A model generated the notes under the pieces. The model saw only the letters and a list, made by a program, of their open reading frames with translations, was not told where the DNA came from and did no database searches. Position numbers and translations under genes: made by a program. From Lachnospiraceae bacterium (GTDB lineage Bacteria > Bacillota > Clostridia > Lachnospirales > Lachnospiraceae), in the NCBI GenBank assembly GCA_017440575.1, contig JAFSGY010000032.1, forward strand, positions 1 to 37,500: DNA of 37,500 bases, in the 5' to 3' direction. The number at the start of each line of letters is the position of its first letter. Within the stretch, counting starts at the first letter, position 1. This document shows positions 9,622 to 12,218 of this stretch, piece by piece.

Positions 9622-10551
9622 TTAAATCAATACTTTCAGCTTTGCAGGCAGACACTCAAAACAAACCTTGGTCACATCACCACAATATTCTCCATCTGTA
9701 TGTAAAACCATCGGCTTATCCATAGATAATTCACAACACTGACAATTCTCTATCTTCACTCCATGGAACCGTTCATGCTTGGCGGCTACCAAAAAAGGAA
9801 GTACAAAAAAGGTACATAACTTTGGTATTCCATGAACGGTACAAACTGACAAAAGACCATCCTTTGCATCCGCAGCCGGTGCCATAGGAACGCCGCCACC
9901 CTCTGCCCTGAAATTCATTGCTGCAGAGAAGATATGTTTTTTATAAAGTGTCTTTCTTCCCTTATCAATCACTACTTTGGTATCCGAAGTCTGCATACTA
10001 AGAATCGACTGTACTGTTATGATCAAATACGTCAGCTTTCCAAGACCGATTCGATTCAATACCTTCTTAATCCTAGAGGTCATGGACTTCTTGCAGACAA
10101 GTGCATCCATACCAACTCCCGCACTAATCATAAAGAGGCGTGAAATCTCTCTCTCATTATCCAGCCAGCTTGCCTTTCCCAAATCAATGGTCTGAGTTCC
10201 CTTAGACTCCAGAATCCGTAGCAAAAGCTCCTCTGGTGTTCCTGAAATTCCTAAGCCCCTTGCACAATCATTGCCTGAACCCGTAGGAATAATTCCAAAT
10301 CTTATTTTTTCAAAGCAAGTAATACCATTTACCACTTCATTAATGGTTCCGTCTCCACCAACAACAACCAGCTTAATCTCAGCTTCATCCAAATTACTGA
10401 TTTCTTCTGCAAGCTTGGTTGCATGTCCAGCGTACTCTGTCTTCCAGATACGATACGGCTCTTCCTCTTTTTTCAATAATGCTTCTATTTGTTTCCATAC
10501 ACGTACACCTTTTCCGCTTCTGGAATGCTCATTTACAATAAAATGAATCAT
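9622..10551 (-). CDS. Diacylglycerol/lipid kinase family protein (YegS/DagK-like)
   Basis: A 309-residue soluble protein of the diacylglycerol kinase catalytic family. It has the N-terminal NEHSRSGKG motif, the nucleotide-binding GGDGTINEVVNG (about 67-78) and the GSGNDCARGLGI stretch. The family phosphorylates lipids such as diacylglycerol or undecaprenol using ATP at the inner face of the membrane. The ATG at 10551 is preferred because AGAGGTG lies six bases upstream; a GTG at 10560 would overlap that ribosome site. It starts about 12 bp after the mgtE stop and is almost certainly co-transcribed with it, although no biochemical link between lipid phosphorylation and Mg2+ uptake is evident from the sequence. 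Confidence 0.85.
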   Translation of the reverse strand: MIHFIVNEHSRSGKGVRVWKQIEALLKKEEEPYRIWKTEYAGHATKLAEEISNLDEAEIKLVVVGGDGTINEVVNGITCFEKIRFGIIPTGSGNDCARGLGISGTPEELLLRILESKGTQTIDLGKASWLDNEREISRLFMISAGVGMDALVCKKSMTSRIKKVLNRIGLGKLTYLIITVQSILSMQTSDTKVVIDKGRKTLYKKHIFSAAMNFRAEGGGVPMAPAADAKDGLLSVCTVHGIPKLCTFFVLPFLVAAKHERFHGVKIENCQCCELSMDKPMVLHTDGEYCGDVTKVCFECLPAKLKVLI

Positions 10552-10562
10552 AATATTCACCT

Positions 10563-11954
10563 CTATAGCTGTAACACATTAATTAACAGCAACCATGCAA
10601 ATCCATAATAAGTAACTACTGCCACAAGGTCATTTACTGTTGTAATCAGCGGTCCTGACGCGACTGCAGGGTCTACCTTCATCTCATGGAAGAAGATGGG
10701 CACTACCGTTCCTACAAAGCTCGATATTGTCATAGAAAGAATCAGTGCAATTCCAACACAGGCTGATATTGCAAATGCATAACCTACCGTCTGTCCTTTT
10801 AACAGACATACATATGCCCCAATAAACACAACGGACAATATGCCTAAAATCAAGCCATTGCAAAAGCCAATCCGCATTTCCTTAAACATCATACCAAGCT
10901 TCTGCTTCTTCTCGAGATTCTCATCCATCAGACCTCGAATCGTAACCGCAAGGGACTGCGTTCCCACATTACCTGACATACCTAAGATTAATGACTGGAA
11001 GCTTACAATAATCGCAAGCTCTGAAATCACACCTTCAAACAATCCTGTCACGGCAGATACAAACATACTAAGCGCCAACAAAACAGCAAGCCACGGAATA
11101 CGCTTTTTAATGCTTTCCAATACACTCTCTTCCAAATCAGCCTCTTCTGTCATACCGGCAAGCATGGCATAGTCTTCGCTCATCTCATCATCAACTACCT
11201 CAACAATATCCTGTGCCGTAATAACACCCAGAATCTCATTTTCCTCGTTTAAAACCGGAATGGAATCCTCCGCATAATCCTTCAATCGCTCAATACAATC
11301 TGCTATCTGTTCATGATCGCGTACATATGGATACGACTGACTGATTAAAGTGTGCAGCTCTACATAATTACGTGCAACAATCAAATCCTTTAAGTTGATT
11401 GCCCCGTAAAAGGAATTATCATCATCCTTCACATAGATGGTGGTAATATTATCATTTTCCTCTGCCTGGGCAATCAACTCACGCATTGCCTGCTTAATGG
11501 TCAATCTTCTGCTAATCTCTATATAATTGGTAGTCATAATACTACCAATCTCATCCTCGTCATAGGAACGAATCAGGTTGATGTCTTCCTTTGACTCCTC
11601 ATCCATCAACTCAATCAACTGATTTCTAGTTTCCTCATCTACTTCTTCAAGAACATCAACCGCATCATCGGCATCCATGTTCTCAATAATGTCTGCCGCC
11701 TTCTCCGGCTCAAGTTCTTCCAGATAAGTTCCTACATCATCTACGTAAGCAAAGATTTCAGATACTCTCTCTATCCCAAGTATCTGATACAATCTTTTTC
11801 TCTCAAATTCACTTAATTCATCCAATGCAGATGCAATATCGTTATCATGATAATTATCAATCTGCTCTGCAATTGACTTCTCAAATTCGCCATTACGAAT
11901 CAGCTCTACCAGCTCCTGCACATAATCAGGAACCATGATTTCTTCATTCTCCAT
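10563..11954 (-). CDS. mgtE: Magnesium transporter MgtE
   Basis: A 463-residue protein with the full MgtE plan: an acidic helical N domain (about 20-130), paired CBS domains (about 135-255), a connecting plug helix, and a C-terminal membrane domain with five helices that contains the conserved GNVGTQSLAV pore motif. MgtE forms a dimeric Mg2+ channel that closes when cytosolic Mg2+ binds the N and CBS domains. The start has GAGGTGG upstream. The gene sits behind a 229-nt leader with its own promoter, a short leader ORF and alternative hairpins, described separately, which suggest regulation by transcription attenuation. The lipid kinase gene follows 12 bp downstream. Confidence 0.95.
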   Translation of the reverse strand: MENEEIMVPDYVQELVELIRNGEFEKSIAEQIDNYHDNDIASALDELSEFERKRLYQILGIERVSEIFAYVDDVGTYLEELEPEKAADIIENMDADDAVDVLEEVDEETRNQLIELMDEESKEDINLIRSYDEDEIGSIMTTNYIEISRRLTIKQAMRELIAQAEENDNITTIYVKDDDNSFYGAINLKDLIVARNYVELHTLISQSYPYVRDHEQIADCIERLKDYAEDSIPVLNEENEILGVITAQDIVEVVDDEMSEDYAMLAGMTEEADLEESVLESIKKRIPWLAVLLALSMFVSAVTGLFEGVISELAIIVSFQSLILGMSGNVGTQSLAVTIRGLMDENLEKKQKLGMMFKEMRIGFCNGLILGILSVVFIGAYVCLLKGQTVGYAFAISACVGIALILSMTISSFVGTVVPIFFHEMKVDPAVASGPLITTVNDLVAVVTYYGFAWLLLINVLQL

Positions 11955-11993
11955 CTACTCCACCTCAAAACAATATAAAACTGTTTTGGGCAT

Positions 11994-12052
11994 AAAAAAA
12001 CCACCGTTTTATACTCCCAAAAACAGAACCAAAGGGTTGCTTGAAACGATGG
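11994..12052 (-). terminator. Attenuator terminator in the mgtE leader
   Basis: On the minus strand CCATCGTTT (12052-12044) pairs with AAACGGTGG (12009-12001) over 9 bp with one G-U, and seven T residues follow (12000-11994). A 34-nt loop lies between the arms. The hairpin lies upstream of mgtE and 18 nt downstream of the leader ORF stop, so transcripts that end here never reach mgtE. Confidence 0.7.
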
Positions 12053-12108
12053 ACAAAATCATTCTTATACTAAAATACTAAGAGTTCGTATACGAACCTT
12101 TGTCCATC
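12048..12108 (-). promoter_or_regulatory. Antiterminator stem in the mgtE leader
   Basis: GATGGACAAA (12108-12099, inside the leader ORF) is perfectly complementary over 10 bp to TTTGTCCATC (12057-12048). The last five bases of the second arm are the first five of the terminator stem, so only one structure can form at a time. Inside the loop is the perfect palindrome GTTCGTATACGAAC (12084-12097). A ribosome that reaches the leader stop would cover the first arm and favour the terminator; one that stalls or falls off early would leave the antiterminator free. Confidence 0.65.
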
Positions 12109-12144
12109 CATGCTAGGTCGACCGCAACTATCACAACTGTCCAT
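12070..12144 (-). CDS. 24-aa leader peptide of the mgtE operon
   Basis: An ATG at 12144 with AAAGGAG seven bases upstream opens 24 codons ending in TAG at 12070-12072. The peptide begins MDSCDSCGRPSMDG and ends in a hydrophobic tail. It is too short to be an enzyme and matches no family I know. It sits about 40 nt from the predicted transcription start and overlaps the first antiterminator arm, the classical arrangement of ribosome-controlled attenuation. Acidic residues at codons 2 and 5 and a CxxC-like pair are notable. In enterobacteria Mg2+-responsive leader peptides work by stalling or destabilising ribosomes; whether this one senses Mg2+ is inference. Confidence 0.65.
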   Translation of the reverse strand: MDSCDSCGRPSMDGQRFVYELLVF

Positions 12145-12189
12145 ATACGACACTCCTTTCTGATTATTCTACGTTAGTAATTTACTTTT

Positions 12190-12218
12190 ATTCTATTCTT
12201 CTGATACAAAATTGTCAA
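12190..12218 (-). promoter_or_regulatory. Promoter of the mgtE operon
   Basis: A perfect TTGACA (-35) and TAGAAT (-10) separated by 17 bp on the minus strand. It overlaps the last codons of the upstream HAD gene and predicts a leader of about 229 nt before mgtE. Confidence 0.75.

Follow-up and report, generated by a model that had tools for sequence, protein, structure and literature searches.

A leader lies on the minus strand between a HAD hydrolase gene and mgtE, the gene for a Mg2+ importer that is followed in turn by a YegS-type lipid kinase gene, in the window (the whole stretch of DNA analysed here, 37,500 nt from a draft genome of 122 contigs that is 78% complete by tool estimate), and the question raised by this locus is how the leader acts on mgtE. 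The first-pass annotation had proposed ribosome-controlled attenuation, a proposal that comparison with relatives strongly supports: the leader ORF is conserved, as are both mutually exclusive helices, whose sequences have changed. The reading put forward here, to which we assign a probability of about 0.66, is ribosome-controlled attenuation of mgtE through a conserved leader peptide, with low Mg2+ as the most likely signal. Comparison of sequences establishes the protein-coding start of the ORF, the two exclusive helices, the promoter and the link to mgtE; production of the importer probably depends on whether the leader is translated.

Parts of the leader in the window

Re-reading of the minus strand confirmed the promoter (TTGACA-17-TAGAAT, i.e., a 17-nt spacer, with 11 of the 12 positions of the two hexamers matching), the Shine-Dalgarno sequence (SD) and the 24-codon ORF that had been described ahead of mgtE, and likewise the antiterminator with its first arm inside the ORF and the terminator with seven T. 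The coordinates are given in Table 1. Five bases, CCATC, are common to the antiterminator (2:3) and the terminator (3:4), so that the two helices are mutually exclusive, as had been claimed.

Table 1. Leader features and adjoining genes in the window, in the order of transcription
Feature	Position	Strand	Remarks
-35 hexamer TTGACA, leader promoter	12213..12218	-	
-10 hexamer TAGAAT	12190..12195	-	
Leader ORF Shine-Dalgarno sequence AAAGGAG	12153..12159	-	
Region 1, SD/start-codon arm	12139..12156	-	Hairpin with 12097-12081; predicted fold; duplex -19.8 kcal/mol
Leader ORF MDSCDSCGRPSMDGQRFVYELLVF	12070..12144	-	24 codons + stop; pN/pS of codons 2-6 in relatives 0.09-0.18
Codon 9, Arg CGA	12118..12120	-	Proposed pace-setting codon
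Antiterminator arm 2 GATGGACAAAG	12098..12108	-	Within the ORF
Partner arm of region 1	12081..12097	-	Directly 3' of arm 2, within the ORF; predicted fold
Antiterminator arm 3 TTTTGTCCATC	12048..12058	-	
Terminator 5' arm CCATCGTTT	12044..12052	-	CCATC in common with arm 3
Terminator 3' arm AAACGGTGG (arm 4)	12001..12009	-	
Terminator T7 tail	11994..12000	-	
mgtE ribosome-binding site GAGGTGGAG	11958..11966	-	Sequence re-read
mgtE, Mg2+ importer	10563..11954	-	MgtE_N, CBS and MgtE domains; TIGR00400 above cut-off
YegS/DAGK-type lipid kinase	9622..10560	-	Next gene of the presumed operon with mgtE

As isolated helices, 2:3 and 3:4 of the window have energies of -13.8 and -10.1 kcal/mol, respectively. 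The fold of the antiterminator segment beats 200 of 200 shuffles (z -3.1), and the terminator segment alone is only moderately above shuffles (z -1.6; 14 of 200 equally good). The window terminator was not picked up by a simple terminator scan that allowed only loops of 3-8, which reported a small hairpin within the ORF instead. When the leader is folded as a whole, the predicted structure (z -1.97; 9 of 200 shuffles equally good) includes a helix over the SD and start codon of the leader ORF. Because this region-1 helix pairs the leader SD and start with a later part of the ORF, a classical set of 1:2, 2:3 and 3:4 helices is possible.

At gathering scores, no Rfam family (including T-box and M-box, RF00380) matched in the window, and at permissive E values the single match was a chance snoRNA (E 0.35) on the opposite strand, again with no match to RF00380. 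The leader had been judged unlike the M-box, and the search agrees with this.

Leader ORF and peptide start in relatives

MgtE matches were gathered in relatives and 118 upstream regions were scanned; five of the 123 matches with E <= 1e-90 were left out (contig edges, partial genes, oversight), as were the distant MgtE matches. An ORF with an SD and a start of roughly M[DE][SNG][CSG]D[SG]xGR was found in 70 of the 118 regions; shuffling the regions gave 0.8, and reverse-complementing them gave 1. Many related bacteria therefore have the same peptide start ahead of this importer, whereas the other 48 regions were without such an ORF by the peptide score used. The set used in the structure tests comprised 75 leaders, namely these 70 and five with a shortened start that were added by eye (L133, L144-L146, L149). 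Their ORFs are 15-52 codons long, and they are mostly 5' leaders with a promoter of their own. Promoter-like pairs occur upstream of 32 of the 75 (2.6 expected).

Within the genus of the window, 25 of 30 loci carry the leader by DNA match alone, and three further orthologues (L136-L138, one of them cut short) had none by peptide score. One of the five genus loci without a leader (L026) has a remnant, in which the SD region is retained and neither the start codon nor arms 2 and 3 were found. A leader version of its own, with MDSCDSTGRS or a shortened start, e.g., MDGSNSRSMNKVF, precedes the second and more distant paralogue of mgtE in the genus (L139, L140, L144-L149).

The pooled in-frame pN/pS of codons 2-6 is 0.18 in the 64 leaders that have no indels; the other two frames give 0.77 and 0.70. 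As this set had been picked by peptide, which biases the ratio, the calculation was repeated on sets picked by DNA, which gave 0.16 in frame for the 25 genus leaders (0.36 and 0.97 in the other frames) and 0.09 for 18 family hits of the sequence model R1 (1.03 and 0.31). Over codons 10-18 the ratio is 0.82 in the former and 0.86 in the latter. Serine codons switch from AGT to TCT at codon 6 (L114, L118) and at codon 10 (L095), and the shorter leader starts differ by whole codons. The low in-frame ratio, the switches between serine codon families and the whole-codon length differences together argue that the start is read as protein and the remainder is not; judged from them, codons 2-6 are under selection at the amino-acid level. 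The same data bear on a ligand-binding RNA whose conserved core overlaps an ATG by chance and which needs no translation. Such a riboswitch would account for the bias of codons GAC (48 of 60 Asp2 codons), AGT and CGA, which is unusual enough to indicate some constraint on nucleotides or codons, and for the low ratio in one of the off-frames (0.31); it is nevertheless improbable, given an in-frame pN/pS that is low but not past codon 10, the whole-codon differences at the start, the serine codon switches and the lack of an Rfam match.

Residue 2 is acidic in 74 of the 75 leaders, Asp being nearly invariant there, residue 5 is Asp in 63, and at least two acidic residues occur at positions 2-6 in 65, frequencies that are partly built in, since the set is partly chosen by peptide and the score rewards Asp2 and Asp5. 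In the sets chosen by DNA, Asp5 is found in 25 of the 25 genus leaders (as is an acidic residue 2) and in 17 of the 18 model hits. Asp5 is absent from 12 of the 75, including all six own-genus paralogue leaders with a shortened start, and is replaced by Gly, Glu or His in several hits from other families (MDGSGSSHKG, MESCGSCGRC, MDNSESPVP, MDGSHNKD). Of the peptide features pointed out by the first-pass annotation, the acidic residues close to the start are conserved, which favours ribosome progress as the sensor, and the CxxC-like pair is not: position 4 is Cys in 51 of 64 leaders and Ser, Gly or Pro in 13, and Cys7 occurs in eight of 64. Zinc or redox sensing through CxxC was set aside because Cys is replaced across leaders, so that it is not the general mechanism. 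An attenuator responding to cysteine starvation was rejected as well, as conserved Cys codons at a stall site were not found (Cys4 in 51 of 64, Cys7 in eight of 64). Classical amino-acid attenuation, in which scarce charged tRNA-Cys or tRNA-Ser would stall the ribosome, would draw on the Ser/Cys-rich start and the two Cys of the window peptide; with 13 of 64 leaders having Ser, Gly or Pro in place of Cys4, no runs of a single residue and a downstream gene for a Mg2+ transporter instead of an amino-acid gene, we regard it as quite improbable.

Of the 38 leaders that have arginine at codon 9, 37 encode it by CGA, although the codons on either side vary; over codons 7-12 of the 75 leaders, CGA accounts for 55 of the 69 Arg codons, compared with 9% of Arg codons in the genes of the window and 7% in those of the loci. 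CGA is decoded through inosine wobble, and the P-site codon and the front of the ribosome are 15-16 nt apart; if CGA occupied the A site, the ribosome would end near +36/37, and arm 2 of the window begins at +36. The tRNA-Arg genes found include ACG, CCG and CCT, with no UCG (30 of 34 tRNA matches taken as loci; genome 78% complete). These observations speak for a codon-paced attenuator, in which the ribosome waits at CGA9, any slowdown of translation or low supply of Arg-tRNA turns mgtE on, and the acidic start is secondary. However, codon 9 is CAG or CAA in most of the genus of the window (in some of these leaders CGA comes one place later, at codon 10), the codon could persist by common descent, and the tRNA list is incomplete, as UCU, needed for the common AGA codon, is likewise missing from it; we therefore consider this alternative unlikely.

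Exclusive helices, distribution and link to mgtE

Helices were sought in the 75 leaders by a looser duplex test, in which 49 were among the best 5 of 100 shuffles and the window was not singled out (23 of 100 shuffles equally good). As merged helices blurred this test, it was replaced by a search for compact helices, with dinucleotide shuffles as expectation and the arm-2 search begun at codon 10. An exclusive 2:3 helix with an overlapping 3:4 helix and T tail was found in 23 of the 75 leaders (1.60 expected). Among leaders of other genera (n = 42), this arrangement occurs in 14 (0.93 expected), the 2:3 helix is better than all 60 shuffles in 15 (0.7 expected), and arm 2 starts at +34 to +37 in 17 (7.7 expected). 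The corresponding values are six (0.28), four (0.4) and 21 (4.7) for the mutually related orthologues of the genus of the window (n = 25), and three (0.28), two (0.1) and five (1.7) for its second mgtE paralogue (n = 8). Arm 2 ends within the ORF in all 75 leaders, and arm 3 begins within it in seven.

The arms differ widely in sequence between genera, e.g., CTGCGGTGGCAGGGG/TTTTTGCCGCCGCAG in L088, ATAATGATGGATACAG/CTTTATCCATCGTTAT in L102 and GCGATGGGCAAA/TTTGTCCATCGC in L106 (arm 2/arm 3), which argues that it is the pairing and not the sequence that is kept. Of the compensatory changes proposed as a check on both stems, a two-sided one can be cited for the 2:3 helix, where GGGCGAAT/ATTCGCCC is replaced by GGGCGTAT/ATACGCCC in L028. 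Beyond codon 10 the sequence drifts while pairing persists. If the leader served to make the small peptide, as a regulator or metal binder, and the hairpins were an ordinary terminator, the conserved peptide start and the CxxC of the window would be explained, but neither the drift of codons 10-18 at the amino-acid level under retained pairing nor the loss of CxxC elsewhere, and we hold this to be very improbable.

The 3:4 helix takes two forms. In 16 of the 25 genus leaders it is CGCCC/GGGCG, which ends 5-10 nt before the mgtE start, over the ribosome site of that gene (start codons as guessed by script), and in the window and its two nearest relatives a T7 terminator stands in place of this block (by sequence; the script chose another helix for L009). 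Within the ORF or close to it, 20 of the 75 leaders have a hairpin followed by a U-rich tail (6.3 expected), 15 of these 20 being genus orthologues. In own-genus leaders such as L011, L012, L013, L016, L020 and L021, U-tailed hairpins lie within the ORF about 43 nt from the ATG, e.g., ACACTG..CAGTGT followed by TCTTTTT, and in L017 the in-ORF hairpin is ACACG..CGTGT. Such a hairpin is possibly a pause site or a second terminator; it does not agree with the simple model, as early stalling would switch mgtE off if the hairpin terminates. In L098 and L099, GAGCAGCT directly ahead of the leader start and AGCTGCTC towards the end of the ORF are complementary. A T run follows AGCTGCTC, and a leader left untranslated might therefore terminate directly.

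Model R1 yielded 24 non-own hits in 299 genomes of the family, 18 of them before mgtE and six by chance (chance hits were judged from their reading frames throughout). With model R2, 295 genomes of the order gave 32 non-own rows, 29 of them with loci, of which 22 lie directly before mgtE and five are chance; of the remainder, L157 is cut off too early for a judgement, and in L179 mgtE lies 1 kb further on. These order-level hits are partly non-independent, three coming from genomes of the family set (G095, G221, G330) and five more from the genus of G221; they include other families and a distant MgtE subfamily (L166, L170, L175-L178). Among 291 genomes of the class there were ten non-own hits, six before mgtE, one before a CorA-type gene and three by chance, and among 398 genomes of the phylum one weak hit besides the window itself (E <= 0.003). 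A scan of 84,980 named species genomes with the exact pattern gave 22 hits. In 21 of them mgtE follows on the same strand, 123-449 nt downstream; the remaining hit has only 47 nt of sequence after it. The motif is present in records named Coprococcus comes, Roseburia, Blautia, Agathobacter, Hominisplanchenecus faecis and Clostridium fessum. A pattern scan of viral contigs was without matches.

The leader before the CorA-type gene (Pfam CorA, 8.7e-51) scored only E 0.002 with the model. It is a single case (L212:1514-1692), with a leader that begins MDSSDGNPLRR and whose ORF contains a GC hairpin and a T run; a search of 32 genomes from the same family did not find it again, and two hits there were due to chance. 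Two tandem mgtE genes flank the leader in L177 and L178, as the Salmonella mgtQ lies between genes.

The M-box was found in none of the 38 genomes of the genus of the window (search with strict filters) and in six of the 79 genomes searched, in four of which (G067, G048, G072, G044) it adjoins a distant-type mgtE. With no M-box in the genus and the M-box beside distant-type mgtE elsewhere, the leader and the M-box look like alternatives.

Proposed mechanism and known systems

Under the ribosome-controlled reading, transcription would start about 40 nt ahead of the leader ORF, and a ribosome would load on the leader and make MDSCDS... Once past codon 9, it would cover arm 2 and later sit between arms 2 and 3, so that 3:4 pairs and mgtE is off, through the intrinsic terminator in the window or a hidden mgtE ribosome site in most of the genus. 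A ribosome that stalls or falls off within the first nine codons would leave arm 2 free, 2:3 would form and mgtE would be on. As with MgtL and MgtQ, ribosomes bearing the acidic start would be destabilised when Mg2+ is low. With no translation at all, the 1:2 helix together with 3:4 would keep mgtE off. That the ribosome acts as the switch in the cell, and in this direction, we infer; Mg2+ as the signal is suggested by the linked gene and by analogy with MgtQ and MgtL, which provide the strongest hint.

A wider reading, which we offer tentatively and consider possible but doubtful, is that a translation-based Mg2+ sensor arose in Clostridia separately from the enterobacterial MgtL and MgtQ and took the place of the M-box: an acidic nascent start would weaken Mg2+-poor ribosomes and a strongly preferred CGA (inosine wobble) would park the edge of the ribosome at the antiterminator, with a terminator or a hidden ribosome site as output and both MgtE subfamilies, perhaps also corA, as targets. 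If true, Mg2+ sensing by ribosome stability would be a convergent solution that extends beyond enterobacteria to common gut bacteria in which no M-box was found, and acidic residues at 2 and 5, arrived at twice, would provide a simple, testable rule for the destabilisation of ribosomes by nascent chains. The tens of natural leader variants are material on how RNA reads out the position of a ribosome.

The M-box (RF00380) likewise stands before Mg2+ transporter genes, which it controls in Firmicutes, but there the RNA itself senses Mg2+ and there is no leader peptide. The Thioalkalivibrio mgtE motif is, like the window leader, conserved before mgtE; the part of PMC11109978 drawn on here presents it as a riboswitch candidate limited to Thioalkalivibrio, in which a large stem contains the start of mgtE, and describes no leader peptide for it. 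A full-text literature search, with subscription papers and preprints mostly outside its scope, gave no paper on this leader among the matches listed. Two surveys of bacterial RNA motifs (PMC11109978, PMC8632094) and a survey of premature terminators (PMC2965389) do not mention Lachnospiraceae in their main texts by word search, and the last two of these papers do not mention mgtE there either.

Judged by sequence features, the leader resembles a trp-type attenuator in having a short protein-coding ORF and mutually exclusive helices, with one arm in the ORF and one helix that forms a terminator or ribosome-site block. The trp-type transcription attenuator follows a 1:2, 2:3 and 3:4 logic with a T-tailed terminator. 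This logic is the same in the window leader, which differs in having no run of regulatory codons and an ion transporter as its target.

With MgtL and MgtQ, the leader has in common the acidic residues at the peptide start and the linkage to a Mg2+ transporter gene. According to the sections of PMC8092293 on mgtQ, where it is compared with the trp-type attenuator, Asp2 and Glu5 encoded by this ORF in the Salmonella mgtCBRU operon destabilise the ribosome, and the mgtB ribosome site is freed through 2:3 against 3:4. The likeness to the window-type leaders lies in the short ORF with acidic residues 2 and 5, in 1:2 and 3:4 opposed to 2:3, in a 3:4 helix that hides the ribosome site of a Mg2+ transporter gene and, as proposed here, in destabilised ribosomes that turn the gene on. 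The mgtQ ORF, however, as described in that source, has eight codons, lies between two genes, acts on translation only and is enterobacterial, with mgtB as its target, whereas the window-type leaders have 15-52 codons, are mostly 5' leaders with their own promoter, precede mgtE and end in a terminator or a hidden ribosome site. In MgtL, the leader peptide of E. coli mgtA, acidic residues cause ribosome drop-off in low Mg2+ according to the portion of PMC11282234 consulted; as in the window leader, an acidic start (EPDP in MgtL) goes with a transporter gene being turned on, but MgtL acts by Rho-dependent termination, has prolines in its motif and controls mgtA. The analogy therefore suggests that the leader works like MgtQ and MgtL, a likeness of working for which no kinship by descent is claimed.
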